Positions 7,961 to 61,055 of a stretch of DNA of 64,000 nt are shown piece by piece. The DNA comes from Spinacia oleracea (taxonomy: Eukaryota > Streptophyta > Magnoliopsida > Caryophyllales > Amaranthaceae): contig NC_079491.1 of assembly GCF_020520425.1 (NCBI RefSeq), positions 5,071,143 through 5,135,142 on the forward strand, written 5' to 3'. The notes under the pieces are model-generated. The model was not told where the DNA came from. It made no database searches and saw only the letters and a program-made list of their open reading frames with translations. Position numbers and translations under genes: made by a program. Every line of letters starts with the position of its first letter. The first letter of the stretch is position 1.

Positions 7961-8028
7961 AAGCTACAAAGACCAGTACGTACTCTGTCTCGTTATTCAC
8001 AAAGTTTTCTACAATTATTACAAACTCA

Positions 8029-8256
8029 CAGCATAGCCAAAACAAATCCGATAAGTGGAACACAATTTCTGAAACCAACACACGAGTGGAGCTTATGATC
8101 AAGTAGAGTCAAATGCACGTCTTTCAGCGACATTATTCACAAAGTTCTCTACAGCATAGCCAAAACAAATCCGATAAGTGGAACATAATTTCTGAAACCA
8201 ACACGCGAGTACAGCTTATGATCAACTAGTCAAATGCACGTCTTTCAGCGACTTTA
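8029..8256 (-). repeat. Tandem duplication of the 3' end of gene A
   Basis: About 105 bp starting at CAGCATAGCC are repeated 123 bp apart (8029 and 8152). The repeat includes the last codons and stop of gene A. Copies B and C have the segment once. The outer copy lies in the 3' UTR. Confidence 0.75.
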
Positions 8257-11200: not shown

Positions 11201-11627
11201 AATAAATCGTCAAGAAAAACACAATTCCATAAAAAAATTAAACACCGGATTCGAACTAATTACAAAACCAAAACACATTTCGACAACAAATACACAGCAC
11301 AATCAAATCAAAATATGTAAATTATACCTGAAAAACGACCAAATTCTTGCCAAGAAGACCTTCCAAACCCCCAAACTTCTGGATTTGGTTCCAGTAGAAA
11401 TGTCTCATCTGGTTCCTCAACAAGCAGTCGTACGACCTGGAGTTTGTTAGGTCGGGAACAAACGTGCTTTTCTCTTTCAGTTGCTTGAAAGTTGTGATGC
11501 CGCCGCTGCCGCTGCCGCCGCCTCCGCTGTTTCCGCCTCCGACTATCATCCCCGGCACGTATAACATATCGGCGCCGAGAGCCGCGAGGTCCTCCATCGT
11601 CATCGTCAGGTCTCTCTCTTTTTCCAT
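8222..11627 (-). CDS. Unknown plant protein, family copy A
   Basis: Seven exons read from GT/AG sites, agreeing in all three copies: 11328-11627, 10237-10348, 10088-10152, 9799-9921, 9599-9685, 8409-8528, 8222-8305. They join in frame to 296 aa. Exon 1 (100 aa) has a Gly/Ser-rich run (GGGNSGGGGSGSGG, about 31-44), then an FKQLKEK...NQMRHFYWNQIQKFGGLEGLLGK-type region (my gap). Later exons are helical and leucine-rich (HIPHLLQCLQ, EYNRALLDDTLLKLL, NAVLKLLRYLNTEDG). There is no signal peptide or membrane segment; a soluble protein is likely. I do not recognise the family. The repeated helices could suggest an ARM/HEAT-like fold, but that is weak inference. A short 3' duplication follows the stop. 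It looks intact: no stop or frameshift in any exon. Confidence 0.75.
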
Positions 11628-11639
11628 TTTAAGTGGGAG

Positions 11640-11945
11640 TGTATAATTGTGTAATTCTGTAATTGTGTAATTGTGTAAATGTGTAATGTTGCCGCCGTTC
11701 GCTTTTATTAGGACAACACGCAAGCTTCTCTTATAAAAAGAATTTACTGGAGATTTTTTATTTTTATTTTTATTTTTTATTATTACTTCGTATTTTTTAA
11801 TGCAAAGGAACTAAGAAGATTATAATTGGAAATTAGTCAATGACTTATTTTCCCTTAAAGTTACAAATACATAAAAGTTAGAGGTCGTGCCGTATTAGCA
11901 GTATAAAGATAAATTGTTTTTCTTACGACCTATTACTAGAGCATA
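11640..11945. other. Upstream flank shared by genes A and B
   Basis: From the leader to about 11945 this matches 25672-26000 upstream of copy B, including the stretch 'ggaactaagaagatta'. It marks one edge of the duplicated block. No gene is seen. Confidence 0.6.
11731..11738 (-). promoter_or_regulatory. TATA box of gene A
   Basis: TTTTATAA on the minus strand about 105 bp before the ATG at 11627. The same block (aagcttctcttataaa on the plus strand) is kept in copies B and C, which supports function. Confidence 0.6.
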
Positions 11946-13330: not shown

Positions 13331-15802
13331 TGTAACGCCCCGACTTCTAAACACCATTAATTAGGTTAATTATCTTTAATTTGCAGCGGAAACCCTAATT
13401 TAGTCGGAGCGTCACTTGCCGTATTTCCCTCGTGGAAAATACAAGGCGACATAACCTTTTTCAATTACTAAATAAACTTTAATAATAAATACTTTTAGCA
13501 TCTGGTTAATATTAGTATTAAAATCTAACTCAAATCATGAGATCAAACTTAGAGTTTAATTAATACATCCCTTTATTACTAATGACATAATTGTCTCTAC
13601 TAAACATCGATCGTGAATTTGATGGTTGCATCCTCACTCTAAGGCATCCCATGATCTTCTTCGTACCTAAAACAAAAGCAACATCGTGAGCCGAGGCCCA
13701 GTAACATACTACCCTAACAGCGTAAACTCATTTCAATTCATTTTATTTACTTTGCAATCAGGGAGAATAGAACATAGTAAAACATTTTCATAAATACAAT
13801 AAAACATCATTTATAACTTGAAACTTTGATAGTTCCCATTATCTTTCTTAAAACCTTCTTTTTACTTGGTAACTGACAAGTTAGCCTTGCGGGACGTCTC
13901 CCACCTTGCGATAGTCCTCAAGGAGCACTCTCCCTTGTTGGACATACGCCCGTACCTAAATAGTTTCTCTTTTAGCTTGCGGTAACCCTCAAGGAGCACT
14001 CTCCCTTGTTGGGTGTCCCGCGGTACGGCGGTACGGCGGTACGTGCACGACCTAGAAATAGTAACCCCACTAACTGCCAGAACCGGTTACACTTTTATTT
14101 ATCATGTTTCGTATCTTATTCGTAACTCATAAACATCATTCTTATAAAATCATTCACAAACACATTTAAATATCATCATTCATAAAACACACTTATAAAC
14201 ATATTTCATATCCCACAATCCTATAAAAACATATCATTATAAACATATTTCATAATCTCATAAAACACATTTCATAAGGGGATTGTGGGTGTTAGCAATA
14301 GATGTTACCTCAACCGTAGTTTATACTTCCTGTTCGATGGATCGTTATTCCTGAGCTCCGAGTTCGATTTCTTTCACAATATTAAATCATTCAATTAGTT
14401 ATTAAACGATTAATATTTTAAAATTAATACTTTATAATAAGTTTATAAATAATTGAATTTACGAATTATAATTTCATAGTTTTAACGAAAATGTTATTAT
14501 TAATCAAAATTTCAATCTAAATTCATATTTCATAAATCGATTTTATACGAATATTATTTAAACCAAAACTCTGCCGAAATATATTTATAATATTATCATT
14601 AAGAATTTATTTAATTGAAATGTTTAAGTAACCGTTTATTTTTACAAAATAATTAGATTGGTAAATAATTGGGCAAAATAACAAAACTCACTTTGGGAAT
14701 TTGGGCCAAGGGAATGTGGGCTTAACTTGAGCAACAAAACAAAGTTCCAATTACTGGAACTCGTTTCCTTTGAGGGAAACAGAACACGAAGGAACAGGGG
14801 ATGGACGAAGAGGAAGGGCGGAGAGAAGGGAGGTGGCGGCTGGATGGCTGATGCTTGGGCGATACGGAGGCGCGAAAGTGCGCCGGTGATGGTGGTTGTG
14901 GGTGCTGCGACAGCGAGAGAAAGGAAGGGGGAGCACGAACAGGGCGAGACAGGGGAGAGAAACAGGGGAGGGGTGTTTCCCGGTCGATTCTGGGCGGCGC
15001 AGCAGCAGCTGCCGGGTCTTGTGAGGCGGAGGTGGGTATAGAAAGTGGTGCGGTGGCCTGGGTGTGGTGGTTTCGTGGCTGGGTGGTGCGGCAGCGGCGA
15101 AGAAAGAGGGAGGCAGAGGTGTGCGTGAGAGGGAAGAGCAGGGGAGTGAGCAAAGAGGGACAGGGGAGAGCGAAGAGGGCGGAGGGGATGGTGGTTGGTG
15201 CGTGGTTGAGATGGTGGTGCTGGGCAGCAGATAATGGTGGTGGTGGACGGTGGTTGTCACGGTGGTTTCAGTGATGGTGGTGATTGATTGCTTGAATCAG
15301 AGAAGAGAGAAAAAGAAGTGGAATTGGTCTCTTGTTTTTGCAAATGGAAATTCTGAAATTGTTGAATTTGTAAAGGATTGAAGTGGAAGAAGCAAACTTG
15401 ATTTTTGTTTTGAATGGAGACTGAAATGAAGGAAGAAGGAAGGAAGGAAATTTCCTCCTTACTTTGTACGTGGGGAGCAAGGAAGAGAAGAAAGGGAAAT
15501 GGAATCTTGGTGCTCCAAGGGCATTTTCGTAATTTCACATGGTTGGCTAAAATTCAGAAATTCTGTTTCTATTTTTGGAAATTACTAAAAATAGAAATGT
15601 TAAATTAAAACAAAGTCTCGTAAAATATATCGTTAACGAAAAATAAATAAATTTTCGTTTATAAATTTATCGTTTAAAATAAATCGTAAAATCGTTTAAA
15701 ATAACGAAATTTTTAAATTATTTCTAATAATTAAAACGAAATTACGTTAATACAATATTATTAATTTTAATAAATCGAGTTTAAAAATTTCGGGGTATTA
15801 CA
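13331..15802 (-). repeat. 3' LTR of the gag-only retroelement
   Basis: 2,472 bp, the same length as its partner. A G-rich, purine-biased block (about 14770-15260) makes long open frames in several phases, but these read as low-complexity Pro/Ser/His or Gly/Arg strings and are not genes. Confidence 0.9.
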
Positions 15803-16604
15803 TTCTTACCCCCTTAGAAAAAGTTTCGTCCTCGAAACTTGAATTGATTGTTGAAAGTCGAATATATTTGAATAAAAGTACGAGATTTTATTTTAAAACC
15901 AAGATCTCACGATTTCATTCCAGTTCCGACAATGTCTAGCTTACATTCCGCCATCTTCTTTAATGACTCCGCTTCAACTCAAGACCTAGAATCGAAGAGT
16001 AAAGAATACAAAAGGGGCAAAATTATATATCGACCCTTAATCGTCATTAAGGTCAATTACATTCTGCCAGCATCTTTCGTACCTCCACTTTACTTCATAA
16101 AATAGGATCGAGGAGCAAAGAACATAAAAGGGGCAAACTTGTTAGCTTAGACTAGGCTCCCATTTTACTTTGTGATATCTTGTTTGAAAATATTTTTCTT
16201 ACCAAAAATAGTAATATTTAATGCAAAATTTATGACTTTGAAAATGAGAATAAATATTTATCTAACAATTGCAATACTCAAATAATTTGTAAAAGTCATT
16301 TATTATAACAATCTCATACTCTGAGCTCAGGAGAACCTCCATCGAAGACGACTTTCATACGTAACGATTTGTTATTACCAATACAATCATGTCAGCATAA
16401 ACATAATTCATAAAGCATATCTTAAACACATAATTCTTTAATTGAAAATTTCATACATAAGCATAACATTCATATAACTAATGATGGTAATACATCTTAG
16501 TTTGATACTTGATTAACGCATATTACTTTCAAAATTTCCATCATTTAGTTTAGACTATTTCTTCTAGATGTTCGATCACGCGTTTTCAAAAGATCATTCA
16601 TTCT

Positions 16605-17783
16605 TTACTCCATAGTAGCGAAGTCGTCATTGTCATTTGCGTCATCGCCTTTTCCTTGCATTAAAAACACTCTTCCATTCGAAGTTGCTCCACGTGGGGG
16701 ATTACGGTTGAAATTTGTAGTGCCACCATTTCCTTTGTTTTCATCGTTTCTCCTATCACCTTGCTCTCGATGTATTTGAGGACAATCTCTGATTTGGTGA
16801 TCTTTGCTACCACATTTGAAGCAATCTCGCGTACCAATTCGACATTCTTTCTCAGTATGGTTCCATCTTCCACACTTGGCGCATCCACGATTCTTGTTGA
16901 AGCTTTGGTTTCCGTTATTCCCTCCTTGATAGCTGACATTGACATTTTGTTTCTTATTGTTCGGTTGATTTTCTTCGAAGCTCCCTTTTCGTTTTCCATA
17001 TGTTTCTTCTCGAAGCTTGATAATTCTTTCGACGTTAATTGCTCGATCGTACAACTCTTGGAAAGTGGAAATTCTAGAACTTGAAAGACGATCACGGATC
17101 TCAATGCTTAATCCTCCTTCAAATCGATTCATCCTTTGCCTATCAGTAGTCACCAGGTCAGGGGCAAATCGAGCAAGCTCATTGAATTTCACTGCATATT
17201 CTAGAACATTTTTCTTTCCTTGACTCAATTTGATAAATTCCGATTCCATTTGCATTTGTAGAGAATAGGGATAAAATTGTTCCCGCATAGCTTCCGTCAG
17301 TTTTTCCCAACCAAAACCAGGCTCATTTTGGATTCCTTTAACACTTTTCCACCACAGGTTGGCTTGTCCTTTCAAGTAAAAGACAGCATAGTTGACCTTC
17401 CATTTCTCGGGGCATTGAGTTGCATCAAATAACTTCTCCATATCGCTAATCCATTCCTCAAATTCAGTAGGGTCTGGCTTGCCATCATAGGTAGGGGGTT
17501 TATGAGAAGCGAACTTCTTGAACATGTTGGAGCATTCTTCTTGCTCTGACCTTGGCTTTTGACGATTTCCTTGCAGAAGTTCCGACATTATCAATCTCAT
17601 TAAATCCATTCGATTATCGCTTGTTTCTCCTGGAGTGTCCCCGAAAATGGGATCCTTGCGCAATTCTTCAATTCTTTCTTGCATTCCTCCCAGCGCTAAT
17701 ACAGATTTGTGATTACCATTGCCATCGTTAACATCGTTATCGTTTCTAGTGCCGTCAATAGGAATATTTCCGCTTGAAGTCAT
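16605..17783 (-). CDS. Retrotransposon Gag
   Basis: 392 aa with the plant retrotransposon Gag domain in the middle (a KPDPTEFEEWI...LKGQANLWWKSV pattern, about residues 100-215) and two CCHC zinc knuckles near the C-terminus (CAKCGRWNHTEKEC and CFKCGSKDHQIRDC). It packages element RNA into virus-like particles in related elements. It is the only element gene I recognise between the LTRs. Confidence 0.85.
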   Translation of the reverse strand: MTSSGNIPIDGTRNDNDVNDGNGNHKSVLALGGMQERIEELRKDPIFGDTPGETSDNRMDLMRLIMSELLQGNRQKPRSEQEECSNMFKKFASHKPPTYDGKPDPTEFEEWISDMEKLFDATQCPEKWKVNYAVFYLKGQANLWWKSVKGIQNEPGFGWEKLTEAMREQFYPYSLQMQMESEFIKLSQGKKNVLEYAVKFNELARFAPDLVTTDRQRMNRFEGGLSIEIRDRLSSSRISTFQELYDRAINVERIIKLREETYGKRKGSFEENQPNNKKQNVNVSYQGGNNGNQSFNKNRGCAKCGRWNHTEKECRIGTRDCFKCGSKDHQIRDCPQIHREQGDRRNDENKGNGGTTNFNRNPPRGATSNGRVFLMQGKGDDANDNDDFATME

Positions 17784-18057
17784 CGCCGATCTGATCGCAA
17801 GGATACAACACTTCAGATAATCTTTTCTTCTTGAAATTAGACTAAGAAATTCTGCAAATCATAATAAAGAAAACATTCCCGTTGCGTTCCCCGTCCTATC
17901 ACTCACACTCATTTCATTTTAACTTAGCATGATTTTAACTTATTCTTTTTACTCATTCCTTAAAATTCTTGCTTAAAACCTAGTAAATTTTTATTTCGTG
18001 CAAAACCCGTAAAGTTTAGCACTTATGGTCGCAGAACCTTGGCTCTGAATACCAAAC

Positions 18058-20529
18058 TGTAACGCCCCGACTTCTAAACACCATTAATTAGGTTAATTAT
18101 CTTTAATTTGCAGCGGAAACCCTAATTTAGTCGGAGCGTCACTTGCCGTATTTCCCTCGTGGAAAATACAAGGCGACATAACCTTTTTCAATTACTAAAT
18201 AAACTTTAATAATAAATACTTTTAGCATCTGGTTAATATTAGTATTAAAATCTAACTCAAATCATGAGATCAAACTTAGAGTTTAATTAATACATCCCTT
18301 TATTACTAATGACATAATTGTCTCTACTAAACATCGATCGTGAATTTGATGGTTGCATCCTCACTCTAAGGCATCCCATGATCTTCTTCGTACCTAAAAC
18401 AAAAGCAACATCGTGAGCCGAGGCCCAGTAACATACTACCCTAACAGCGTAAACTCATTTCAATTCATTTTATTTACTTTGCAATCAGGGAGAATAGAAC
18501 ATAGTAAAACATTTTCATAAATACAATAAAACATCATTTATAACTTGAAACTTTGATAGTTCCCATTATCTTTCTTAAAACCTTCTTTTTACTTGGTAAC
18601 TGACAAGTTAGCCTTGCGGGACGTCTCCCACCTTGCGATAGTCCTCAAGGAGCACTCTCCCTTGTTGGACATACGCCCGTACCTAAATAGTTTCTCTTTT
18701 AGCTTGCGGTAACCCTCAAGGAGCACTCTCCCTTGTTGGGTGTCCCGCGGTACGGCGGTACGGCGGTACGTGCACGACCTAGAAATAGTAACCCCACTAA
18801 CTGCCAGAACCGGTTACACTTTTATTTATCATGTTTCGTATCTTATTCGTAACTCATAAACATCATTCTTATAAAATCATTCACAAACACATTTAAATAT
18901 CATCATTCATAAAACACACTTATAAACATATTTCATATCCCACAATCCTATAAAAACATATCATTATAAACATATTTCATAATCTCATAAAACACATTTC
19001 ATAAGGGGATTGTGGGTGTTAGCAATAGATGTTACCTCAACCGTAGTTTATACTTCCTGTTCGATGGATCGTTATTCCTGAGCTCCGAGTTCGATTTCTT
19101 TCACAATATTAAATCATTCAATTAGTTATTAAACGATTAATATTTTAAAATTAATACTTTATAATAAGTTTATAAATAATTGAATTTACGAATTATAATT
19201 TCATAGTTTTAACGAAAATGTTATTATTAATCAAAATTTCAATCTAAATTCATATTTCATAAATCGATTTTATACGAATATTATTTAAACCAAAACTCTG
19301 CCGAAATATATTTATAATATTATCATTAAGAATTTATTTAATTGAAATGTTTAAGTAACCGTTTATTTTTACAAAATAATTAGATTGGTAAATAATTGGG
19401 CAAAATAACAAAACTCACTTTGGGAATTTGGGCCAAGGGAATGTGGGCTTAACTTGAGCAACAAAACAAAGTTCCAATTACTGGAACTCGTTTCCTTTGA
19501 GGGAAACAGAACACAAAGGAACAGGGGACGGACGAAGAGGAAGGGCGGAGAGAAGGGAGGTGGCGGCTGGATGGCTGATGCCTGGGCGATACGGAGGCGC
19601 GAAAGTGCGCCGGTGATGGTGGTTGTGGGTGATGCGACAGCGAGAGAAAGGAAGGGGGAGCACGAACAGGGCGAGACAGGGGAGAGAAACAGGGGAGGGG
19701 TGTTTCCCGGTCGATTCTGGGCGGCGCAGCAGCAGCTGCCGGGTCTTGTGAGGCGGAGGTGGGTATAGAAAGTGGTGTGGTGGCCTAGGTGTGGTGGTTT
19801 CGTGGCTGGGTGGTGCGGCAGCGGCGAAGAAAGAGGGAGGCAGAGGTGTGCGTGAGAGGGAAGAGCAGGGGAGTGAGCAAAGAGGGACAGGGGAGAGCGA
19901 AGAGGGCGGAGGGGATGGTGGTTGGTGCGTGGTTGAGATGGTGGTGCTGGGCAGCAGATAATGGTGGTGGTGGACGGTGGTTGTCACGGTGGTTTCAGTG
20001 ATGGTGGTGATTGATTGCTTGAATCAGAGAAGAGAGAAAAAGAAGTGGAATTGGTCTCTTGTTTTTGCAAATGGAAATTCTGAAATTGTTGAATTTGTAA
20101 AGGATTGAAGTGGAAGAAGCAAACTTGATTTTTGTTTTGAATGGAGACTGAAATGAAGGAAGAAGGAAGGAAGGAAATTTCCTCCTTACTTTGTACGTGG
20201 GGAGCAAGGAAGAGAAGAAAGGGAAATGGAATCTTGGTGCTCCAAGGGCATTTTCGTAATTTCACATGGTTGGCTAAAATTCAGAAATTCTGTTTCTATT
20301 TTTGGAAATTACTAAAAATAGAAATGTTTAATTAAAACAAAGTCTCGTAAAATATATCGTTAACGAAAAATAAATAAATTTTCGTTTATAAATTTATCGT
20401 TTAAAATAAATCGTAAAATCGTTTAAAATAACGAAATTTTTAAATTATTTCTAATAATTAAAACGAAATTACGTTAATACAATATTATTAATTTTAATAA
20501 ATCGAGTTTAAAAATTTCGGGGTATTACA
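18058..20529 (-). repeat. 5' LTR of the gag-only retroelement
   Basis: 2,472 bp and nearly identical to 13331-15802. It ends at the GGTGG target duplication, beyond which the interrupted poly-A retroelement resumes. Confidence 0.9.
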
Positions 20530-22246: not shown

Positions 22247-22548
22247 TTAAGGAAAGCAATAGATGTCTGAAATCGTGATTTACAAGCACGTATAATGTCA
22301 GTTACAGTACTTGAGAATCTGTATATCCAGTTAAAACCGGCCACATGTACTAGAAGCTTAGAGTTACATTACTTGCATCCCTAAGGTCTAAGCTACATTA
22401 CTCAGCTCCAAGTTAAGCTACAAAGACCAGTACTCTTTCTCGTTATTCACAAAGTTTCCTACAATTATTACAAACTCACAGCATAGCCAAAACAAATCCG
22501 ATAAGTGGAACATAATTTCTGAAACCAACACGCGAGTACAGCTTATGA

Positions 22549-25500
22549 TCAACTAGTCAAATGCACGTCTTTCAGCGACATTATCTTCTCAGGGCTCACT
22601 TTGGGGCAACCAGCAGCCATCTCATCAAACCCCTGCAATTATTATTTTGTTTAAAAAAAAATAAACAAGATTATTAATGTAATCATAAACAATATTTGGA
22701 CTCATAACGAACAAGAATATATAAGAACTTCACTACAGAGGCTAAGCGATTTACATGTATTTTCTGTATTCCGTCTTCAGTATTCAGATAACGCAAGAGT
22801 TTCACAACTGCATTACGACTGTTCAACCCTCCAGCATTATCGAGAGCAAAATCTCCAGCAAGAAACATCAAGACCTGAATTGAATCAAATACATGTCACA
22901 CCTTCAAACAGGGCCAAGTTTTTCCAATCGATTATCTAAAAATATTGAATAATACTCCTTAGTGTTAAAATACTAATCTACTATTGTTATGTTTGTACCA
23001 AGTTGCTCTATCAAGTTTTACAGCTGTATTTGTACCCCCCCAAAATAAAAATCCATGTCATTATATTACTACATAGCTATATTGAATCATAGTCTGGAAA
23101 ATATTAATGTCTTCCCATGGTTATTAGTTGATGACAGTCTAACTTCAAGATGACCAGAAATACCCCTCTTTGTATCCAAGCAATTAAAACAGAAACTCCA
23201 AATTGACAATCTGAATGAGAAATATTAGGTCCTACGAAAAAATGATGCACCCCAAAAGCAACAACTTAAATAGAAGTATACAATTAAGGTAATCCTACAA
23301 CAGGGCATAAACAACAAACATGACAATGAACATTTAAGCAGTGACAATCTGAATGAGAAATATTTAAGCGACAAAGCAATGCTCTAAAAGTCAAGTCACT
23401 GATGATACAACACGTACGTCCTGTAATAATACCGTGATATTTATCTTTCCTCTAAAAAAGCATCAAGAAAAAGTGTAGACAACCCCCAAAACATCATTCA
23501 ATATCATTCTAGATCATAAGCATTTCACCTACTTATTAATCCTATTGACTGCAGGAACTAATCTTGTTAATCCTTCAACAACAAATGAGTTTAAACTACC
23601 AATAGAAACATCATAATCTCAATAGTACCTCAGTACAATGAATTCCAAGTGGCATGGGTGTATCTTTGTACTCCTTCACTGGATTTTTCATCAAGTCGTA
23701 CAACTGTTTATCAACCTTCATAAGAAACCACAACATCATTTTTAAATATTAGCCATATGAAGAAAGGGGAGTAACAATAAGACTTGGCTTGTTAAATGGG
23801 ATGTCAAAGAGACATAATAAACTCAACAGTACCTCTGAGTCAGGAGTACCGAATGGGATATCAAATGCTATGTCTCTAAGGCCACCAACAGGGTCATTGG
23901 AGAGGAGTGACAGAAGTGTATCATCGAGCAAGGCCCTGTTATACTCTTTGATCACCTTCAAAGGAAGTTATAACTTCATCATAAGAGACTAAAGTTGATT
24001 AAGATAACAAAAAGCAGGCTATTTAGTTTTTTTTACTTTTCATGGAGGTGGAATTTCCAACAATAAAAAAGCATTATGCAGAGAAAGTAAAAGTATTCTC
24101 AAATATGTAATATAACTCACCAAGGAGCGAGAGTACACCCAGCGTTTGGAATCTTGGAGGCATTGCAGCAAATGCGGAATATGAGCTGCAATGTGCATAA
24201 GAAACATTAATTTCAAACTAGACAAGTATGGGTGCTAAAACAAAACATTACTCTCGTTATAAAACCTTTAAACAAGTTTCTGGAACATTCAGCAACATTT
24301 GGATCCTCTGGATTCTGTTTGGAAACTTCATGATACAGCTTCATTTGCAGGTCTCTACCTTTATCAACCAAAACAAGCTAAAAACAAGAGAATTAGTAAG
24401 AAACGACAAGAAAAATTGAGGACATAACATCTAGCTAGGAGAGTCAGACAGGAGTTCCTACCTCAAATCAAATATTATATCATTGGAATACAAGACTTAG
24501 CAGCATATCAAAACTGAATCCAACAAATTTCATTGGAGCCTCTATCACCTACATAATCCTAGACTGATTTATTGAATAGGTTAATGCCTCAATGGATCAA
24601 AGATCGTCAGATAATTTATGTTCCAACATAATTATAGACACTCTGAGACAAGAAGTAATATATTGTAGCGTTCTTAAATATATTCCTTCAGTGTCACAAG
24701 AAGCATGTCACTGAGAATCGGATAATGTACCAGAAAGTAAGATGTTCCCTTGTGTACTGGTTAGTGTATAGGTACTTCAAGATTTTAGCAGCATATCAAA
24801 ACTGAATCCAACAAATTTCCTTTTTCCTCCTAATCTGGATGGGGAAGATGATAATCCAACAAATTTCCTACATAATCCTAGACTGATTTATTGATCAAAG
24901 AATTGGTACTTCAAGATTTAATTCGGTCCAAATCATCTAGTACTCCACTACTCCGTATGATTTTCTTTTAAGTCCAAACAGCAAAAATGGTAGCATGAAT
25001 TTACTGTAATTAGATCTGTAAGACATTCTCATCAACACTCCAATACATCATCATCGATCTTTGTCGCTATCAATTTGAAGCATACATTTCATATCCGCAA
25101 GAAAACAAAGACGCTAGACAAGTTCATCGAAATAATGTACTCAAACTTGATTAGAATACCAAACAGAAATCATATTAATATTGACCTAACAACAATAAAT
25201 CAACAAATTAAAAGCTAGAACACAATTCCAAATGAGCCATAAAATCAATAAATCATCAAGAAAAACACAATTCCATAAAAAAATTATGCAAAACGAAACA
25301 CGGAATTCGAACCAATTACAAAACCAAAACACATTTCGACAACAAATACACAGCACAATCAAATCAAAATATGTAAATTATACCTGAAAAACGACCAACT
25401 TCTTGCCAAGAAGACCTTCCAAACCCCCAAACTTCTGGATTTGGTTCCAGTAGAAATGTCTCATCTGGTTCCTCAACAAGCAGTCGTACGACCTGGAGTT

Positions 25501-25671
25501 TGTTAGGTCGGGAACAAACGTACTTTTCTCTTTCATTTGCTTGAAAGTTGTGATGCCGCCGCCGCCGCCGCTGTTTCCGCCTCCGTCTATCATCCCCGGC
25601 ATGTATAACATATCGTCGCCGAGAGCCGCGAGGTCATCCATCGTCATCGTCAGGTCTCTCTCTTTTTCCAT
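22549..25671 (-). CDS. Unknown plant protein, family copy B
   Basis: Seven exons with the same borders as copy A: 25384-25671, 24266-24377, 24121-24185, 23833-23955, 23629-23715, 22755-22874, 22549-22632. All join in frame to 292 aa. It differs from A mainly by a shorter Gly run in exon 1 (GGGNSGGGGG) and scattered replacements (for example VDKGRDLQ for VDEGRNLQ, NDPVGGLRDIAFDIP for HDPVGGLKDIAFDVP). Intron 5 is shorter than in A; intron homology shows a DNA-level duplication, not a retrocopy. No frame damage is seen, so it is probably functional. The family is unrecognised. Confidence 0.75.
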
Positions 25672-25781
25672 TTTAAGTGGGACTGTGTAATTGTGTTATT
25701 GTGTAATTCAGTAATTGTGTTTGTGTGATTGTGTAAATGTGTAATGTTGCCGCCGTTCGCTTTTCTTAGGACAAGCTTCTC

Positions 25782-25789
25782 TTATAAAA
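25782..25789 (-). promoter_or_regulatory. TATA box of gene B
   Basis: Same TTTTATAA block as in gene A, about 110 bp upstream of the ATG. Confidence 0.55.
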
Positions 25790-26139
25790 AGAATTTACTG
25801 AGCTTTATTTATTTTTTTATTTTTTTTATTTTTTTTATTTTTATGCAAAGGAACTAAGAAGATTAAAATTGGAAATTAGTCAATGACTTATTTTCCCTTA
25901 AACTTATAGATACATAATAGTTAGAGATCGTGGCCGTATTAGCAGTACCCGAAATAGACAAATTAAAATCTTCTAATAAAGGTTTAGTACAAAGATAAAT
26001 TTGTTTTTACGATCTATAAAAATCGGAAAATTATTTTTTACCGCCTAAAAAACTAAAATTCATATTTTACCACTTTAAAAAAGATAAGACTTGTATTTTT
26101 ACCATCTGAAAACGGAAAAATAGATGAAATCGTTATGTA

Positions 26140-30130: not shown

Positions 30131-30409
30131 TTGCTTATGTTTGGCGTAAATAGTCAAGCACAGGTAGGCGTACAGTTGATCACAATACCATCTTCAGTAG
30201 ATCGATCGAGTAGCTTAGTTTCATTACCTCTAACGAGGCTTAGTCAAGCACTTCAAGGTTACTCAGCTCCAAGTTAAGCTACAAAGACCAGTACTCTTTC
30301 TCGTTATTCACAAAGTTTTCTACAATTATTACAAACTCACAGCATAGCCAAAACAAATCCGATAAGTGGAACACAATTTCTGAAACCAACACACGAGTAC
30401 AGCTTATGA

Positions 30410-33400
30410 TCAACTAGTCAAATGCACGTCTTTCAGCGACTTTATCTTCTCAGGGCTCACTTTGGGGCAACCAGCAGCCATCTCATCAAACCCCTGCATT
30501 TATTTTATTTTATTTTAAAATAAGATTATTAATGTAATCATAAACAGTATTTGAACTTATTACGAACAACCATATATAGGACTTGACTATAGGGGCTAAG
30601 CGATTTACATGTATTTTCTGTATTCCGTCTTCAGTATTCAGATAACGCAAGAGTTTATGAACTGCATTACGGCTGTTCAAGCCTCCACCATTGTCGAGAG
30701 CAAAATCTCCAGCAAGAAACATGAACACCTGAATCAAATACCACATGAATAAATTAAAAAAATAAAAATAGAATCAAATCCATGTCAATATAAATTTGAA
30801 AGATACAAAACCTACATCCTGCAAGAATACCATGAAGTTTATCTTTCCTCGTCAAAACATTAATCAATTCAATAGGGTGGGGAACTTTGTGGCTTGTAGT
30901 TTGGCACTTCGGGAAACTAATCATTTTCAAAGAACAATGGAGGTGAAAACAGATCAATCTGACTCATAACAACTGAAGTCAAAGAAACTATTAACTTCAG
31001 ACTCTTACTATCAATATTATTCTAGATTATAATTCAAAAGCATTTCACCAACTTACTAATACTATTGACTGCAGGGACAAATACTATTAATCCTTCAACA
31101 ACAAATGAGTTTAAATTACCTAGCTGATATTGCTATTTTTAAAGCAATAGTTCCATTAGAAACATCATAATCTTAATAGTACCTCAGTACAATGAATTCC
31201 AAGTGGCATGGGTGTATCTTTGTACTCCTTCACTGCATTTTTCATCAAGTCGGACATCTGTTTAGATACCTTCATAAGAAACCACAACATTATTTTTTAT
31301 GAAGGTAACAATAAAACTTGGTTAGTTGATGTTTCAAAGAAACATAATAAACTCAACAGTACCTCACGGTCAGGAGTACCAAATGGGATGTCAAATGCTA
31401 TGTCTCTAAGGCCACCAACAGGGTCATTGGAGAGGAGCTTCAGAAGTGTATCATTGAGCAAGGCCCTGTTATACTCTTTGATAACCTTCAAAGGAAGTTA
31501 TAACTTCATAAGAGGCTATTTAGTTTTTCATTTTTCATGGAGGTGGAATAGCCAAAATTAATAGTAAGACCTTTAAACAAGTTTCTAGAACATTCAGCAA
31601 CATTTGGATCCTCTGGATTCAGTCTGGAAATGCCCTGAAACAGCTTCTCTTGCAGGTCCCTATGTTCATCAACCAAGACAAGCTAAAAGGAACAGGATTA
31701 GTAAGAATTAAACGGAAAGAAAAATTGAGGACATGAACATCTAGGAGAGTCGTACAGGAGTTTCTACATACTCAAATCAAATATTATCACATTGGTATAC
31801 AAGACTTGGCAGCATATCAAAACTGAATCCAACAAATTTAGGGATTATAATTTTACAGCAAAAAAAGTTAAATTGCTTGAAACCAAAAAAAACATCACCA
31901 AACTGTGAAAAAAAATCTAACCATCAGATCCTCGGGGCAAAGCCACATTCGAGTAAGGTTCTTCACCTAGGCCCTAGGAAGGCGACTAGAATCACACAAA
32001 CCTCCGAAAAAATCCCTTTTGCAATGTCAAGATAATTAGCGGTTTACACTGACCAACTTGCAGCTAGATAGATAAGGGAATAGCCAGAAATTTAAAGGAT
32101 AACACCCCTTTTGCTATGCCAGGCATTTCTACTAGATCATTGTGAACAAGTCTCAGCAACACTACAAATATAAAATTCACTTTTGTCTAGATTTGATAGC
32201 AATCCAGAGTAAATAATATTTAGTTAAGTATTGCCCACTTCTCCTACTGGAACTGTAACTATCAGCAATGAGTCAATGACCAGTGGATTGATAGTATGAT
32301 CATGCTGCCTTGTTGATTGATTCACTGCAGATCCTTTAACAATGCATATTATGCCAAAGTTGGAGGTATAAGCACTTCAGAAATGAACAGATTGGAGATG
32401 AAGTTACAGGTATAAGCACATTAGGCTTCAAGTAAACGTATATACATTTAGGAGATATTGTTTGCTGTTGGAAAAAGAAGGTGGAGGATGTCAAATTGAT
32501 TGGCCAATGAAGACATGTTGGGTTAAAGAGAATTGGTCAAGAAATGACGAATACCCACACACGACTCCAGTTCTTCGACACTTTATTTCGGTCCAAATCA
32601 TCTAGTACTCCGTATCATTTTTTCTTTTTAGTACAAACAACAACATTGGTAGCATGAATTTAAGGCGTCAACAGTCCAATACATTATCTTTCTCGCTATC
32701 AATTTGAAGCATACATTTCATAACAGTGACCCATATCCGCATCAAAGAGAGGTAGACAATTCATGGATATATTGATATTGACATAAGAACAATAAAATAA
32801 GACCTCAGCAAAAGGCGGGCCAGGCTGGGATCGGGCGGGGCGAGGATATAAAATCTGTCCATTATGTCGGACCGGGCCAAACTTGGGCCAATTTTATGCC
32901 CAAACCCGTTATATCAGGCCAAAATAGCGGGCTTTTCAAACCATTTATGGGCTTATAACTAAAATTATAGTTTTACGTTATCCGAAGCCCGCAAATTCAA
33001 AAAAATCGGCCCGGCCCGAAAACGGGCCGAAATATGCTGCCCAAAACGCGGTAGTCTTCGGGCCGGGCCGGGCCATGTTGATCAGCTATAGCACAATTAC
33101 AAATGTACCATAAAATCAATAAATCATCAACAAAAAAACACAATTTCATCAAAAATTATGCAAAATAAAACACGAGATTCGTTCCGCTTACAAAAACAAA
33201 ACACATTTCCACAACAAAAACACAACACAATCAAACAATTATTCAAAAATATGTAAATTATACCTGAAAAAAGACCAATTTCTTGCCAACAAGTTCTTCC
33301 AAACCCCCAAACTTCTGGATTTGGTTCCAGTAGGAATTTCTTATCTGGTTCCTCATCTGGCAGTCGTACGGGTTTCTCAGCTCGGGAACATTAAAAAATT

Positions 33401-33575
33401 TCTCTTTCAGTTGCTTGAAAGTTGTGATGCCGCCGCCGCTTCCTCCTCCGCTGTTTCCGCCTCCGTCATGAAACACAAACCGTATCGGAATCCTCTCCGG
33501 CACCAATATCATTTTGTCGCCGAATTCCGCGATGTTATCCTCCGTAATCATCACGAACTTTCCCTCATTTTCCAT
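30410..33575 (-). pseudogene. Unknown plant protein, family copy C, exon 3 lost
   Basis: Exons homologous to A and B lie at 33264-33575, 31571-31682, 31363-31485, 31183-31269, 30609-30728 and 30410-30493. Exon 3 (65 bp, HIPHLLQCLQ...) is missing: a deletion joins intron 3 directly to the 3' side of exon 2. Splicing exon 2 (phase 1) to exon 4 (phase 0) would shift the frame. Exon 1 is more diverged than between A and B (NIAEFGDKMILVPERIP for DLAALGADMLYVPG) and encodes 104 aa. All remaining exons are open. Its promoter is also split by a MULE. It is probably a pseudogene, though a novel splice cannot be excluded. Confidence 0.65.
32810..33085. mobile_element. hAT-like scrap in intron 1 of copy C
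   Basis: GC-rich ends (ggcgggccaggctggg ... cgggccgggccgggcc) around an AT-rich middle, absent from copies A and B at the same place. The style matches plant hAT-like elements of the GGGCCGGGCC type. No clear target duplication was found. Confidence 0.45.
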
Positions 33576-34444
33576 TTTAAGTGGAGTGGGTAAATGTGTA
33601 ATAATCTTATGGCCGCCGTTCGCTTTTCTTACAACAACACGCAAGTTTCTCGAGTAAATAGATCTGCAGGTCCCTAAACTTTGCCAAAATGAGCAGTTAG
33701 GTCCCTCAAGTTTCAAAAGGAGCATTTAGGTCCCTCAAAATGGATGGAAACCGCTGCTTTTTGACTTCTGTTACTAACGGCCGTTAAAATTCAATTAAAT
33801 TAAAAGGAAACTAAATAAAAGGCACTAAACGACAAAAAAACAGTTACATTTACCATTTACCAATAATTAAATAAAGGGAAATTCATTTCAGTTAGTTTTT
33901 TACAAAAATATAGCCGTTGAGGCTCTCAAAAAACAGAGTATTTAACATTCCATGGCAAATAAAACACTTAAAAATTTTGTAGAACGTGAATTATGAATTT
34001 TGTTACAATTTACAATTAGACGTTGCACTTACCGATATGTCCAATATTTCATGCTCCTGAATCTAATTTATTTATCAAGTTTAGATGTGTGTTCAAGCCC
34101 GTCTAATTAATTAAATAAATGAACATAAACGAGCTTGTTCACGAGCTTGTAACATGAACGAGCATGTTTGTGTTCAGATCATGTCCAAACTGATTTGTTT
34201 AATGAGCCTCATTTTGTGTTCTATCTCGTCTCAAAGCTAAGCTCGCTCATCAGAGTATTATTTAACGAAATTCAATTAATGGTCATACTCGTTAGATAAG
34301 AGGACGTAAAAGAGCTTCGTCCGAGTAAGGTAATGAACCTTAATACGGAGTATGTGTTCAAACTAGACACATATACGGAGTATGTATCCACTGTTCTGGA
34401 AATTTAAACATTTGTATTAGATACAAGTTGTATTTCAGACGCAC

Positions 34445-34882
34445 TATATTTAATTTGGTCTTCCTTGGTCTACTAACTACTCCTAAGTATTTAATGAGGA
34501 GCATTGAGATGGGAGAAACAGCTTATCTTCCATTGGTCTTCCTTGACTATATAAACAGAAGGGGGTTGGCTTAAAGCATTACAACAAGACTATATTTAAT
34601 TTGGTCTTCCTTGGTCTACTAACTACTCCTAAGTATTTAATGAGGAGCATTGAGATGTGAGAAACAGCTTATCTTCCATTGGTCTTCCTTGACTATATAA
34701 ACACAAGGGGGTTGGCTTAAAGCATTACAACAAGACTATATTTAATTTGGTCTTCCTTGGTCTACTAACTACTCCTAAGTATTTAATGAGGAGCATTGAG
34801 ATGTGAGAAACAGCTTATCTTCCATTGGTCTTCCTTGACTATATAAACACAAGGGGGTTGGCTTAAAGCATTACAACAATAT
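34445..34882 (+). promoter_or_regulatory. Three tandem 146-bp promoter-like units
   Basis: Units at 34445-34590, 34591-34736 and 34737-34882 differ at only a few bases. Each contains TATATAAA (34548, 34694, 34840) followed about 30 bp later by a CATTACAACAA start-site-like sequence, the spacing of a plant Pol II core promoter. They precede an A/C-rich leader and the small open frame at 34981. Unit structure is seen directly; promoter function is inferred. Confidence 0.6.
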
Positions 34883-34980
34883 TCATCTCTTATATCTTGG
34901 TTTGTATTCAATACTCCATATATAATTTCTTCTTCTACTCAACAACCCAGTTTTTTTTCCTTTCAATTCATCACAACACA

Positions 34981-35091
34981 ATGAATATCTTCTTAACCAT
35001 AGAAGATTTCGTATACAAATATCACCCCCCATATCAGAAAATAAAAATTAGTCATAAAAAAAACACGACCGTAGTTTCTCTGTCTAAGTAG
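34981..35091 (+). CDS. 36-aa open frame inside MULE 1
   Basis: MNIFLTIEDFVYKYHPPYQ and then KIKISHKKNTTVVSLSK. It is the first ATG downstream of the third promoter-like unit, after an A/C-rich leader typical of plant mRNAs (...catcacaacacaATG). No match is recognised. It could be the captured start of a host gene or simply an open frame by chance. The following 400 bp (35092-35520) are GC-richer and may be further captured sequence. Confidence 0.3.
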   Translation: MNIFLTIEDFVYKYHPPYQKIKISHKKNTTVVSLSK

Positions 35092-36214
35092 CCTTCCAAT
35101 GTCATGCTTCCATGACCCCTTGTTGAGTCATTCTCAAAGGGGTTGTGAATGTTGGAGAATCCTGAAAAGCAGATCATCGAATGGTGAGGAAATCATTTTT
35201 CGATGAAGTGAAGCTTGGGTTCGACAAAGGCGTGTTGTGAAGGGATCCACCTCGTGGGGCCTCACCTCGAGAGTTCTAGATGATGGCCATCAAACCAAGG
35301 CTTCAAGCAGTACATGAAACGAATGGATGGCATGTGAACAGAAGGTACGCGAGGCAGTTGGTCTGTATCCCAGAATGTCTGTATCCCGGGCCGAACAAAC
35401 GTGAGTCGGATCAAATTGTGCATAAATGGTATCCGTTACTCGGTTGGTCTTATGTTATGGTTCAAGTGTATACCCTTTTGAGGATTGGGTTGGCAACGGG
35501 TATTTACTAGCCTTGTACAGTGGGGAAGGACCATTGTCATGTAACTAGATTATCCTTTATTAATATATGTTGTGATTTTGTGTTTAATAAGTTAAGTGTA
35601 AGAACTATTTGTAATCACATCGACACTTGATTTTTAACTACTTAGATATCTCATAGGATTTTGCCTTGGGATATTTGATGTATATTAGACTTCTAGTCAT
35701 ATTAATGAATTAGGACTCGATCATATTGTAATCCCTATATCATTGTTCAATGGAATACACTGCCATCTTCCACCAAATGATCAATCTATTTGTTTGGGGG
35801 GATTAGATCTCAGTTTTTTCTTTCTCGGAATTAATCAAGATCAAATATTTTAGCATCTCTTTTAATATATTTTGTCAATTTTTATTGTAGATGTATAGGG
35901 TTAAATTGCTCTGTTATGATGAAATGTGTAGGGTGAAAAAGCAAATGAAAAGGCTAAGGAACTTGAAAAAGCTAAGTCAAAATCAAAAGAAGCTATTTTA
36001 AATCATTTATACACATGTAAATTGATTTCCCTTTATTTAAAATCAGTTTTATTATTATTTAATTGAACTTAACGGAAAATGTAACGGTGTTAATAAAAAT
36101 AGCTTATTCCATCCATTTTGAGGGACCTAAATGCTCCTTTTGAAACTTGAGGGACTTAACTGCTCCTTTTGGCAAAGTTAAGGGACCTCCAGACCTATTT
36201 ACTCCAAGTTTCTC

Positions 36215-36221: not shown

Positions 36222-37850
36222 CATTTAGTTTTTATAACCTTCCAAAAAGGAGTTAAGTACAAGATTGGGACCTCAGTTTTCACATAAATCACCAATCAGG
36301 ACCTCAATCTTATTTACTCACCAATTGAGACCTAAGGTTAACAATCCGGCAAGTTAACCCAAGTTTAACTCACCGGAGCAAAAAATAAGAAACTTAGGTC
36401 CTTAATTCAATAACATCAATAACATAGGTCCTTGTTGCTTACTTATGAGTTTTCTAACATTTCAACTCTAAAATTAAAAATAAAAGCAATATGTTCTTGC
36501 TTCCTACAAAATATATCTGTTGGAGATCTTCAAAACAATGCATCACCTGTTATAAAATTACAACTAGTGCTGATAGTTCACAAAATTACAACTATTACTG
36601 CTAGTTCACAAAACCAAATTCTTGCAATCTACAGAAATGTTCCTGCGCGCTCATCCAGTAGTTCCTGCACTGCTTCCATTCTTCTCCAACCCTATGATCA
36701 ACTTCCAAAAACCAACCCAAACCTTGAAAAAAAAACCACAAAAAATCAAAGTATGACCATGTTGTATAAATGTCATCAAAGAGTTATGAAAAGGGTTTCA
36801 AGAACAACAAAAAAATCAGCAAAATACATGATTGAAGATATTACATGAATAATATATGAAGATTAAGACAACACGCACTTGTTTAGTTTCATATTAAATC
36901 AAGCTTTCCTTCTGTTAATTAGGGTCTTGGTTACTTTCACACACCTGTTTAAGTGTTTTAGTTTAAGAACATGATATTGGTGGCAATTTTGTCATCCATG
37001 TGCCTGATTTTTACTTCGACTTCTGAGACCCTAACCACTAAATTATTCTAATCAACCACAGTACATCTTAAGTACTCCTACATTTTGATAAAACTAGTTT
37101 AGATAAAGATAGTGCTAACTTTCACTAAGAGATAAAGTAGTAGTATTAAGTAACGGTACAATATGTCGTTAGCTTTTAGGTGAATGTCGTATGAGAATGG
37201 CTAATTAATTAACTCTACCTGACATATCTAGATGCATTTCCATGGAGTAAGATTGAGATTTTCTCTGTCTCTTATATCTCATTAAGTACAGTAGGATATA
37301 AACTACTCAATACTCATATAATCTGTATTTATGTGTTAATTAGTTTGGAGGTGGGCGGTATGTTGTTCATCCATACGAACTCCTGACAAGTTAATTGGTG
37401 TATATATTTTTACATAGTGAACAAAGGTTGTTGCTGCTGTAATGTGTGTGGTATCACTCAAGGCTGATAATTTGTTTAGGTTACCTGTGTTGATTGAGTG
37501 AGATACATTTGGAAGTTTACAACAGACTGACAAATTATATGAGTATCTCCAAGGACAGGCTGCCAAAATGAAAGTTGATCAATTTATTTTACATTGTATA
37601 TCTAGCATTGTGTTAAAAATATACAACCTGATTCCTGTTCAATTAGATTAATGTAGTACGCAGATTTAGCGTGAAAAAAGATCAGTTTTAGGCTCTGGAA
37701 TCTCATTAACAAACACAAATCACCTTACCTCCTAGCAACTCGATCTATTCAAATATTCAAGCTCATTAATCAAGCAACGCAATCTAATGCAATAAGTTGT
37801 GTGTAATTCATGTAAACATAAGAAGAAATGCAGAAAAGAGATGCACCTGT

Positions 37851-40700
37851 TTATGATTTTGTTAATGTTGAAGTGTTTGATGATATGCTTGTTTGCGATT
37901 GACTTCGGTTTAAATTTTGCAATGTGACAAAGAAATCATTAGTGAAGACACAAGCACCATAAATAATTAAAGAAATAGTTAGTGAGCTTACCACTGCTTG
38001 CCTTTGATATCCATTAGGATAAGTATAAACACCAATACCTCTTGTGTGCATAGGAGCAGCTGTATGAGTTTGCTGAGAAGACGGAACCACTGGCTTGGGT
38101 TTAGGTGGTTGTTTCTGCTTCTGTTTAGGTGTTGCAAGCGTCTGTGATGCTTGGCTTGGTACAACTAAGGGTGTCTCTCTCAATGGAATATGGCATTTTC
38201 TTTTGTTATGTCCTTCCCCTCCACAGTTACTGCACTTGTGCACTTGACCCTTCTTGGTTAACTTAAACCCTTCAACCTCACCAACTGATGGCTTCCTCTT
38301 AACGGTAGGTCTATTGTTTAATTTCTTCACCACTGGTGCTACAATTGGAGCATAAGGAGATTCTGGCCATTGTTGTGGACCATTTAAAGGCTCTAAAGGA
38401 TACTGATAAGCCTTTAAATATGTGTCCTTGGCGAAGCAGCTTGCTACGTAGTGTTCAGGATGCTCAACTGCTTTCCAAATAGCCGCAATAGCATGGTTAC
38501 ACGGCACACCACTAAGTTGCCAAGCATTGCAACTACAAGTTCTTTCCAGTAAACTTACAACATATCTAACCAGTGTAGCACCCTCTCTCACACCATAAGA
38601 GAAATGTCCATCCCAAAATGCTGACCATCCCCGTGCATCAATTTTAGATTTCTCTAATCTTTGTTGAATCCGAGGACAAATCAGAATCTCCTTCTTAGCA
38701 ATAAAGTCCCTCTTTTTGTGTAATCTCTCCATTAACCCCTCCTTTATATCCTCAAGCATTGTTATGATTGGCTTATGCCTTGATGACAGTATGTATGCAT
38801 TGAATACCTCATTCATATTGTTGTCGATGCTGTCACACTGAGATTGAGGAGTAAAGTATGCCCTAACCCACTTTTTGTAATTCCTTTTCTTCAAGTCCTC
38901 TGCAGCAATTTCTGAAATTGAAGAAAACAGTTGCATATTTGTCTTGTAATCATTTTCTGTTGTACTCTTTGCAATTTTCCAAAACCCTCTCCTGTACAGC
39001 AGACCGCCTCCGTATACTTGCCTGAAATTACAGTAAACATGCCTAGCACAGACCCTTGTATCTGCCCTTGGCCATATGTCAGACACGACTTTTAATAACC
39101 CCTTCTGTTGGTCAGACATTATTGTATAACCACTCCCATCTGTAGTGTCCAGATCATCAGCTAGAAGTTGAAGAAACCAACTCCAAGTTTCAGTGCTTTC
39201 AGTTTCTACACATGCCCAAGCTATCGGGAACATTTGATTGTTTCCATCCCTGCCAACAGCAACAAGAAGTTGGCCACCATATGGACCCTTTAAAAAACAC
39301 CCATCAATTCCAAAGAAAGCTCTACACCCAGCCAAGAAACCTTTTTTAATAGCAGCAAAGCAAATATAGATTCTCTCAAACACATTGTTGTCAAGTTTGA
39401 ACTTGACTGTGTTCTCCGGGTTCGACCTTAGGATCTCCTGTGCATATCTATGCAACAATGAGTACTGCTCTTTATACTCACCTAATATCACATTTTGAGC
39501 CATTTTTCTTGCCTTCACAGCGAGCCACAATGAGATCTTTATACCCCATTCAGACCAAACCGTCTCAACTATCTCTTTGCACCTTATATATGGATTTACT
39601 TTGAATTTTACATGGTAATTCTTAGCAATCCATGCACATGAATTTTTTTAACCCTAGGCAATCTGCCACAATTGTGGTGTGGGATGTGTGTCTTGACTAC
39701 GAGTGTTTCTTTCCCCCGCTCAAGTAATGCCCATATGTACCATGGACAACCCTGCTCTTTAGCTTTGCATCTAGCCCCCATCCTTCTCTTATCATTTTTT
39801 GTGTAAACCACATCCCTACCTACGCTCACACAGTAGCTAGTCACAGCCTCTCTAAACTCAATAGCATCTTGAAACTCTTGACCTAAGAAAAACGGAGATT
39901 GTGATTCTGATGTCCCAAATAGAAGGTGATTGGACGTAGACGATAACTTAGGTCTTTTCTTAACCCTAGATGGTTGTGGTAGAAGGTAACCACAATCTTC
40001 TTCCTGGTCATCATCTGAGTTAGCAGGAGAATGAAACTCCTCATCATCATCCTTGTAATCACTATCAACCTCTAAATTCTTATCACCTAACCTCCCTGCA
40101 ACTCTATTCAAAGACTCCAGCTCTTTTAGTTATCCATTTTCAGTTTTGGCAGCCTCTTTGATCTTTTTTTCTAGCATCCTTAACTTCTACATCCTCATTA
40201 TCACTCCCTTCTTCGTCATAATCTATGTCATCACCTAGATGATCATGCTCAGTTGTATGGCCAGTCACACCAGGATTAACAACATGATCCTGCTCAGCAA
40301 ACACATTACCATGCTCCGTAAACTCAACCGGATCAACTTGAACAGACTCAAAGTATGACTTAAATGGTTGCCCCTGTCCCCCAACAACAACTTCATCATC
40401 ATGCTCAGTAAACACATCGATAATTCTGAACTCTTCTAGAAGGCTAATGAACATACTGAAGATGGTATCATCATAAGACAAGAACCTAACACCAGTTTGT
40501 AAGTTCTTAAGGGGATCACAATAATGAAGCTTAATCACATTATCATACCCTAATGAGTTGATCAAGTTTTTGAAGTATTGTGCACTGACATTATTAGGCA
40601 AGTCATTGACAATCTTAACTTGACCCCCAAGATAAGAAAAATTAGGATCACACACCCACTTTCCACCATGATGCAATATAATACAAGGTGGGATATCCAT
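37851..40700 (-). pseudogene. MULE transposase (MuDR family), broken
   Basis: Three segments in order. 40700-40140 starts MDIPPCIILHHGGKW, a PB1-like N-terminal domain with an acidic linker. 40111-39608 is the plant MuDR DNA-binding domain (FREAVTSYCVSVGRD...CKAKEQGCPWYIWA). 39640-37851 is the MULE DDE transposase: GIDGCFLKGPYGG (first D), MSDQQKG (second D), CARHVYCNF, NNMNEVFN (candidate E), a SWIM zinc finger (CNAWQLSGVPCNHAIA) and a CCHC knuckle (CSNCGGEGHNKRKC). A frame change plus a stop near 40115-40150 and a second frame change near 39640 break the frame. The C-terminal tail may continue in another exon, since GTAAGC follows at about 37990. A leader intron (donor 42101, acceptor 40703) matches plant MULE gene structure. 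Confidence 0.8.
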
Positions 40701-40978
40701 ATCTACATAAAAAAAAACGACCATATATCAAGCACCGTTATAATTAATCGTACATTGATTTGAAGAATATAAATAAATATCAAAGAAACAACCAATCATA
40801 TATCAAGTACTTCAATTTTGAATTATTAAGCTAGGCTTTAGCTCATCAGTGCTCAATACTTAAGGAATTGATATTTATTTGGCTCTAAGATAAACTACTA
40901 CATTCTTTTTTATTCCATGTCCAGAGTCTTGACTTTAATTGTGTCAAAAGATCTGATTTAGGGGGCAGCGGCACATCC

Positions 40979-41208
40979 TAAGACTTGAACTAATATGTTA
41001 TAAACAATGTCAACTGTTTTTTTCTTTTGACAGCCACAATGTCAACTGTAAAGACTGTCAACTGTCAAGTAGGCATTAAAACAAGAAATGTGTTAAGACT
41101 TGAACTAATATGTTATAAACAATGTCAACTGTTTTTTTCTTTTGACAGCCACAATGTCAACTGCAAAGACTGTCAACTGTCAAGTAGGCATTAAAACAAG
41201 AAATGTGT
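40979..41208. repeat. 115-bp tandem duplication in MULE 2 leader intron
   Basis: Units 40979-41093 and 41094-41208, beginning TAAGACTTGAACTAATA, are nearly identical. They are rich in CAACTGT motifs. Further right (about 42018-42033) the leader holds AAACCCTAAACCCTAA, a telo-box-like motif common in plant 5' leaders. Confidence 0.7.
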
Positions 41209-42474
41209 TAAGACTATCAATTCTCAAGTAGACTCAAAACAAATTCATTTCAAAGTACTTTTTCCTAGTTTAGTAGAAAAATACACTTTGGCTTTGGACA
41301 ATTGTGACTGAAATAGAGAAGAGGGAATGAAGTTGCTTTGCTTCAGGTTCTGTAAAGCTTAATTACATTTACTCGAGTGATCCATCTTAAACCTCATTTT
41401 GTATCTAATTACCCATAACCATGGTCGGTTTCTTGATTACCAATCCATGGCCCATTCAGAACAGAAGCTTAATTAAAGTCTATTTCCAATAAATAGTTGT
41501 AGCCTGTAGGTACACTCAGTTTACAACCTTGTCATATTTCTTGTTTACGCATACTCTCTGAGGGTCCTTGTCACATTTCTTTGACGCTTTAGATGGAGAA
41601 TATGATCATGGGAATAGGCCTAAACTTTCCTTACATTGCTAGCCATTGTGTGCCATATGATTCTTGCACACTGTTAGCTGCATTTTAATCTCTGTTCATT
41701 ATTTTTGAAAAATTTCTCATTATTTGTTTTCCTGTTCTTTTGAAACACTATACTGAAATAAAGATGGCTACTATTTCGAACCCAGACATGATTCCCTTTC
41801 AAAAGGATAATAAAAGTTAGTGATGCTCAATTTACTAATCTCTAAACAATTTCCCCTGTTTTACTAATTCAAACCCTAATAAGTTTATCAATTAGCCCAA
41901 TTCATAAACACTTTTGCCTAAATTTTTTGTCTTTTTAGATTAATATACCAACCCCTGTAAAAACAAATCTTAAACAACATAAAATCGCACAAAAAAAGAA
42001 AATTGAACTTGCATCTACAAACCCTAAACCCTAACATATCCAGTAAAAATCAACTCAATTTCGAGGGAAAAAAATTGCTAGCACACAAATAAACTACATA
42101 CCTTTCACAGTTGGTGTGAATTTTCTGCGATTTTCTCGTTTGGGTAGCTGTTGCAGACGGCTTCAATACTTGACAATGGGATTTTTCGAGTTACAGAGAC
42201 AAGGAGGACGACGAATTGAGCGGGAAGAAGAATTAGAAACAGCGTTTCCTTGTGAACGTTTGAAGGGTAGGTATTTTTTCATATTCCCCATGCTTCTACG
42301 TGTCAAAGAATAATGAAGTATTGTAGTCCAGGCCCATATTTAACTCACCTTTGGTTAACATTGATCAGAATTCTTTTTATAGGTTCTAAACGGTGACTAA
42401 ATAAAAGATAGGTCCTGATTGGTGATTAAAATCAAAAGATAAGTCCTTATTTTGGGCTTAACTCTTCCAAAAAG

Positions 42475-60699: not shown

Positions 60700-61055
60700 T
60701 CTTTTCTATCTCACCTGATTTTGTGGGTTCAGACAGGAAATTCTCTACTGGTTTTGGCGGCTGGAAGAAGAAATGAGGGTTTCGCTTTTAACAATCTTAA
60801 CAATTCAAATCCTTACCCAATTCTCTACTACGGACTATTGACTATTGTGTCCTTATTCGGTTAAGCCAAACTTATTCAATTAATTTATTTTCTTGCCTCT
60901 ACGAAAAGGAACAATCTGTCATTCTTGGAACTTATCCGAAATTATGGATTACACATTCTTATGAAATTATTAAAGGGTGCATAATATATATAATAAATTT
61001 AATGTACATCAAAATAATTTTTAACTTTTTTAAAAAAAACTTTAACCTGTCTTTT
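60700..61055 (-). promoter_or_regulatory. Upstream region of the carboxylesterase
   Basis: 5' flank of the minus-strand gene. The stretch at 60860-60950 is also found in the collapsed duplicate (about 54550-54615), so it belonged to the duplicated unit. No clear TATA box was picked out. Confidence 0.35.

Follow-up and report, generated by a model that had tools for sequence, protein, structure and literature searches.

A putative core promoter present in three tandem units within a non-autonomous Mutator-like element

The Pack-MULEs, Mutator-like elements (MULEs) within which fragments of over 1000 rice genes have been found to be carried (PMC13317346), are the closest known kind to the element described here. 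Tandem promoter units are known from a very different mobile element, the mouse L1Md retrotransposon, where the 5'UTR is built of monomers, promoter activity is higher with a second monomer and copies differ in their number of units (PMC9022269, PMC6454616). Amongst plants, OsMULE-JSS, a 2.7-kb MULE with 80-bp TIRs and a 9-bp target-site duplication, is situated 0.4 kb upstream of rice OsPsbS1, and the R6 minisatellite in the promoter of apple MYB10 consists of a repeated upstream motif with a dose-dependent effect (PMC5671642). A limited literature search, covering few subscription papers, brought up no MULE with a core promoter in multiple tandem copies, which is not proof of absence.

The DNA analysed here is a 64-kb stretch (the window) with a GC content of 35%, in which plant gene families are recognised by Pfam. 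It contains a non-autonomous MULE, MULE1, carrying three tandem copies of a 146-bp unit. On balance we favour the reading that MULE1 holds the captured 5' end of a gene, which would later have been triplicated over its core promoter, with promoter activity inferred from the sequence. Our confidence in the MULE and the array themselves is much higher.

MULE1 and its insertion site

The first-pass annotation had placed the array inside a MULE, and this is borne out by the TIRs together with a 10-bp target-site duplication free of mismatches. The features of the element are as follows.

33652-36204, no strand assigned: MULE1, a non-autonomous Mutator-like element of 2,553 bp with TIRs, a 10-bp target-site duplication and no ORF of at least 150 aa
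33652-33812, plus strand: left TIR of MULE1, 83% identical to the right TIR over 162 columns
36045-36204, minus strand: right TIR of MULE1, matching the left TIR
33642-33651, no strand assigned: left target-site duplication, CAAGTTTCTC, abutting the left TIR and identical to 36205-36214
36205-36214, no strand assigned: right target-site duplication, CAAGTTTCTC, abutting the right TIR

Long TIRs and a target-site duplication of 8-11 bp are features by which a MULE is recognised, and in MULE1 the TIRs are about 160 bp long, their identity rising to 91% across the outer 110 nt. Neither a transposase nor any other Pfam family scored above the cutoff in the 10 of 21 interior frames of at least 40 aa that were scanned and, as far as the ORFs and these frames go, MULE1 shares with the Pack-MULEs the absence of a transposase inside the element. 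Weak matches to Spermine_synt_N in interior frames (E 0.073 and 0.042) were treated as noise, with scores of 13.4 and 14.2 bits where the cutoff is 22.1. A BLAST search with MULE1 within the window matched only the element itself, and no known RNA families were matched in the window. Each TIR contains two 25-bp direct repeats at a spacing of 29 bp, which include AGGTCCCT (33685-33738 and 36118-36171); these are possibly transposase-binding sites.

MULE1 is inserted in the 5' region of a minus-strand gene (exon 1 at 33258-33600) that belongs to a small tandem family, with other copies at 11322-11810 and at about 25378-25700. If MULE1 and one copy of the target site are removed, the flanks thus joined align with the gene copy at 11322-11737 through the junction and for 7 bp beyond it, the match past the junction being this short because a second MULE starts at 36250. 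The copy at about 25.7 kb matches the joined flanks less cleanly, a gap of 7 bases lying next to the insertion site. Stronger evidence for the insertion than the match to the empty site is provided by the perfect target-site duplication. Tandem blocks at 7803-11903, 22397-25947 and 30136-33662, about 74-93% alike, each contain a small gene of no Pfam family, and exon 1 of this gene is conserved in the three copies.

The second MULE, MULE2, is the larger of the two.

36250-42464, no strand assigned: MULE2, with a TIR match of 75% over 73 columns
36240-36249 and 42465-42474, no strand assigned: 10-bp target-site duplication of MULE2, TTCCAAAAAG, a direct repeat
37851-39647, 39608-40129 and 40140-40727, minus strand: open reading frames of MULE2

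The frame at 37851-39647, the only one of the three that was scanned, contains the Pfam MULE and SWIM domains. A gap of just 35 bp lies between MULE2 and the end of MULE1, which places two MULEs in one 5' region. BLAST detects no similarity between the TIRs of the two elements and MULE2 is therefore not shown to mobilise MULE1; by eye, GGACCT repeats in the MULE2 TIR resemble the 25-bp TIR repeats of MULE1. Like MULE1, MULE2 contains a recent tandem duplication, with a unit of 115 bp present in 2.1 copies at 99% (40979-41215). Elsewhere in the window, two direct repeats of 2,472 bp (13331-15802 and 18058-20529), which are 99.7% identical, enclose 2.25 kb with a gag frame at 16605-17858 (Pfam Retrotrans_gag) and no other ORF of at least 150 aa. 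The region 13331-20529 looks like a young LTR retrotransposon carrying gag only.

The array and the architecture of its last unit

Three head-to-tail units of 146 bp had been reported at this site. Both TRF, which gives a period of 146 with 3.0 copies, 99% matches and a score of 860, and the repeat spacing of 146 and 146 show them to be real, in a span of 34443-34879/34880 that is slightly offset from the 34445-34882 first given.

34443-34588, plus strand: unit 1, set apart from the other two units by its bases at positions 70 and 116
34589-34734, plus strand: unit 2, the same as unit 3 apart from the last base
34735-34880, plus strand: unit 3, which runs into the leader

The only differences between the units are at position 70 (G, T and T in units 1, 2 and 3 respectively), position 116 (G, C and C) and the last base (G, G and T). 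The repeat is continued neither by the last three bases 5' of unit 1 nor by the bases 3' of unit 3. A chance repeat is ruled out by the TRF score and the three near-identical copies, a triplication far beyond chance. The differences fit one duplication followed by a second duplication of the downstream unit; gene conversion may be an alternative origin of the identity between units 2 and 3. No further copies of the unit were found by BLAST elsewhere in the 64-kb window.

Within each unit the 13-mer TTGGTCTTCCTTG is present twice, in exact form, at positions 13 and 91, giving six copies in the array. A repeat of any 13-mer was seen in 14 of 20000 random units, and we know of no factor for this one. 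The 438-bp array contains no CpG, against 22 (observed/expected 1.0) in the part of MULE1 to its left and 24 (0.57) in the part to its right; this absence might matter for CG methylation.

A TATA sequence followed by a start-site-like one had been described in every unit, and this description is accurate, CTATATAAA being present in each and a CA lying 30 nt further downstream. TATATAAA starts at unit position 106; counted from its first T, the A belonging to the first CA of CATTACAACAA is 30 nt downstream. A spacing of around 30 nt from the TATA to the start is usual in plant TATA promoters. Beyond unit 3 the array runs, as had also been proposed, into a leader and a frame of 36 aa.

34840-34847, plus strand: TATATAAA of unit 3, with copies at 34548 and 34694
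34870, plus strand: putative start of transcription in unit 3, an A located 30 nt past the first T of its TATA
34870-34980, plus strand: ATG-free, pyrimidine-rich leader of 111 nt
34981-35091, plus strand: ATG open frame of 36 aa, with no Pfam family above the cutoff

Taken alone, the TATA match is weak evidence for a promoter: CTATATAAA occurs five times in the window against 1.64 expected from shuffling, and three of the five are within the array. The last 100 bases of the leader are 69% pyrimidine, a level reached by 1.8% of the 100-base stretches of the window when both strands are considered. To define a promoter-like site we combined a CA at +28 to +36, a leader with a pyrimidine fraction of 0.64 or more and the lack of an ATG for at least 90 nt, criteria and thresholds that were chosen post hoc, after the ranking of the sites was seen. 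With these post hoc thresholds the combination is present at two of the 220 TATAWAW sites in the window, namely the TATA of a SKP1 gene (52907; identified by Pfam Skp1) and that of unit 3 (34840). Forty random windows from a first-order Markov model gave 0.05 such sites each on average and at most 1; they average 123 TATA sites against the 220 of the real window, and scaling to 220 gives about 0.09. Amongst the valid gene controls one of two, SKP1, has the combination and the TATA-type site of a carboxylesterase at 48978 does not, while the overlapping sites at 60985/60987 have everything except the CA. A sigma-70 scan, which is not a test for plant promoters, returned 3 sites against 3.4 in shuffles. 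That unit 3 and its leader are built like a gene promoter is supported by the post hoc combination, which they share with the SKP1 site alone.

The same cannot be said of the other two units, and the notion of three stacked, equivalent promoters does not hold, an ATG-free leader being predicted from unit 3 only. Predicted transcripts contain four upstream ATGs if they start in unit 1, two if they start in unit 2 and none if they start in unit 3. By the post hoc thresholds unit 3 is the only one in the array with the TATA, the CA about 30 nt downstream and the ATG-free leader, and units 1 and 2, which lack the combination, rank 44th and 45th of the 220 sites by leader pyrimidine. The ATGs of units 2 and 3 open a frame of six codons ending in TGA, a stop that is made by the T at unit position 70, where unit 1 has a G. 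The ATGs of unit 1 itself sit upstream of its putative start.

It had also been suggested that the array might drive the cargo of the element, here the 36-aa frame, or the neighbouring gene. The array faces the plus strand and the gene next to MULE1 is on the minus strand, with its ATG at about 33575, so that a role as the core promoter of this gene was rejected on orientation. Across MULE1 there are four plus-strand TATAWAW sites, three in the units and one at 34919, and the minus strand lacks any such site in 33601-34900; transcripts from the array would therefore head away from the gene at 33258-33600. If transcription were unterminated it would run antisense to the transposase frames of MULE2.

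Possible origin and role of the array

We propose that MULE1 holds a segment made up of a promoter and its leader, which would probably have been captured from the 5' end of a host gene. Within this segment a stretch of 146 bp, reaching from about -135 to +11 relative to the putative start, would have been tandemly duplicated twice. Transcription, if active, would start mainly from around 30 nt past the unit 3 TATA, and the transcript would comprise the 111-nt leader and continue into the 36-aa frame. The chief contribution of units 1 and 2 would be extra upstream elements, including the six array copies of TTGGTCTTCCTTG; alternatively they may act as weak alternative starts, giving transcripts with short upstream ORFs. 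An active array would amount to a mobile promoter in which simple duplication could alter the number of units. The movement of gene fragments by Pack-MULEs is known; a captured core promoter amplified in place inside such an element would offer a route for the spread of strong or graded promoters by DNA transposons. An inactive array would be an ordinary tandem duplication inside a MULE.

The main rival, which we consider rather unlikely, is a neutral tandem duplication of a non-functional, non-coding MULE interior, with the TATA and leader arising by chance in AT-rich DNA and having no promoter activity. TATAWAW is indeed common in the window, CTATATAAA is near chance level outside the array, the 115-bp unit of MULE2 is likewise tandem without any promoter reading, and no protein family was recognised in the interior frames scanned. 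Such an origin is, however, harder to reconcile with the TATA, CA and ATG-free pyrimidine-rich leader, which unit 3 has in common only with the SKP1 gene and which are rare in random sequence.

A more far-reaching version of the captured promoter, improbable on present indications, would make the array a promoter built of stacked units and able to expand itself inside a DNA transposon, with a unit number that varies between copies and tunes output. Only the last unit would give a clean leader and the transcripts of the upstream units would be throttled by their short upstream ORFs; by analogy, this would be a plant counterpart of the mouse L1 monomers.

It would seem very unlikely that the promoter derives from another mobile element nested in MULE1, an LTR U3 or an endogenous pararetrovirus, instead of from a host gene. 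U3 regions often contain tandem repeats, and a TATA with repeated upstream elements would fit such a region, but MULE1 has no second LTR, nested terminal repeats or other element ends beyond its own TIRs and short matches, and the exact unit and TIR patterns gave zero matches in IMG/VR, itself a weak test.

We also give little credence to an effect of MULE1 on the minus-strand gene, through an outward-reading TIR promoter, as reportedly found in maize Mu1, or through the array as an orientation-independent enhancer: one end of MULE1 lies 77 bp 5' of the putative ATG (33575), beside a TTTATAAGAG stretch kept by the paralogues, and exon 1 of this copy (33258-33600) is still open, but the putative core promoter of the array points away, with no minus-strand TATAWAW in 33601-34900, and the gene, for which Pfam gives no hit, is itself only presumed to be expressed.

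Comparison with Pack-MULEs and repeated promoters

MULE1 comes nearest to the Pack-MULEs, which it resembles in its MULE TIRs, a target-site duplication in the range of 9-11 bp, the lack of a transposase and an interior resembling the 5' end of a gene. It differs in that the promoter-like segment is tandemly triplicated; assignment to the Pack-MULE class would need a donor gene. OsMULE-JSS is a MULE of similar kind, bearing TIRs and a target-site duplication upstream of a gene. It differs from MULE1, however, in having an ORF with a MULE domain, and the accessible part of its description mentions no tandem promoter array, with 0 occurrences each of 'tandem' and 'TATA'. The apple MYB10 R6 minisatellite shares with the array a repeated upstream motif in a plant promoter but it is a short binding site repeated in a host promoter and not a core promoter in a transposon. 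The mouse L1Md is a retrotransposon, its monomers belong to an autonomous element and their activity has been measured, so that the comparison with the MULE1 array is by analogy only; it is nevertheless with the tandem promoter units of this mobile element that the best functional analogy is found.
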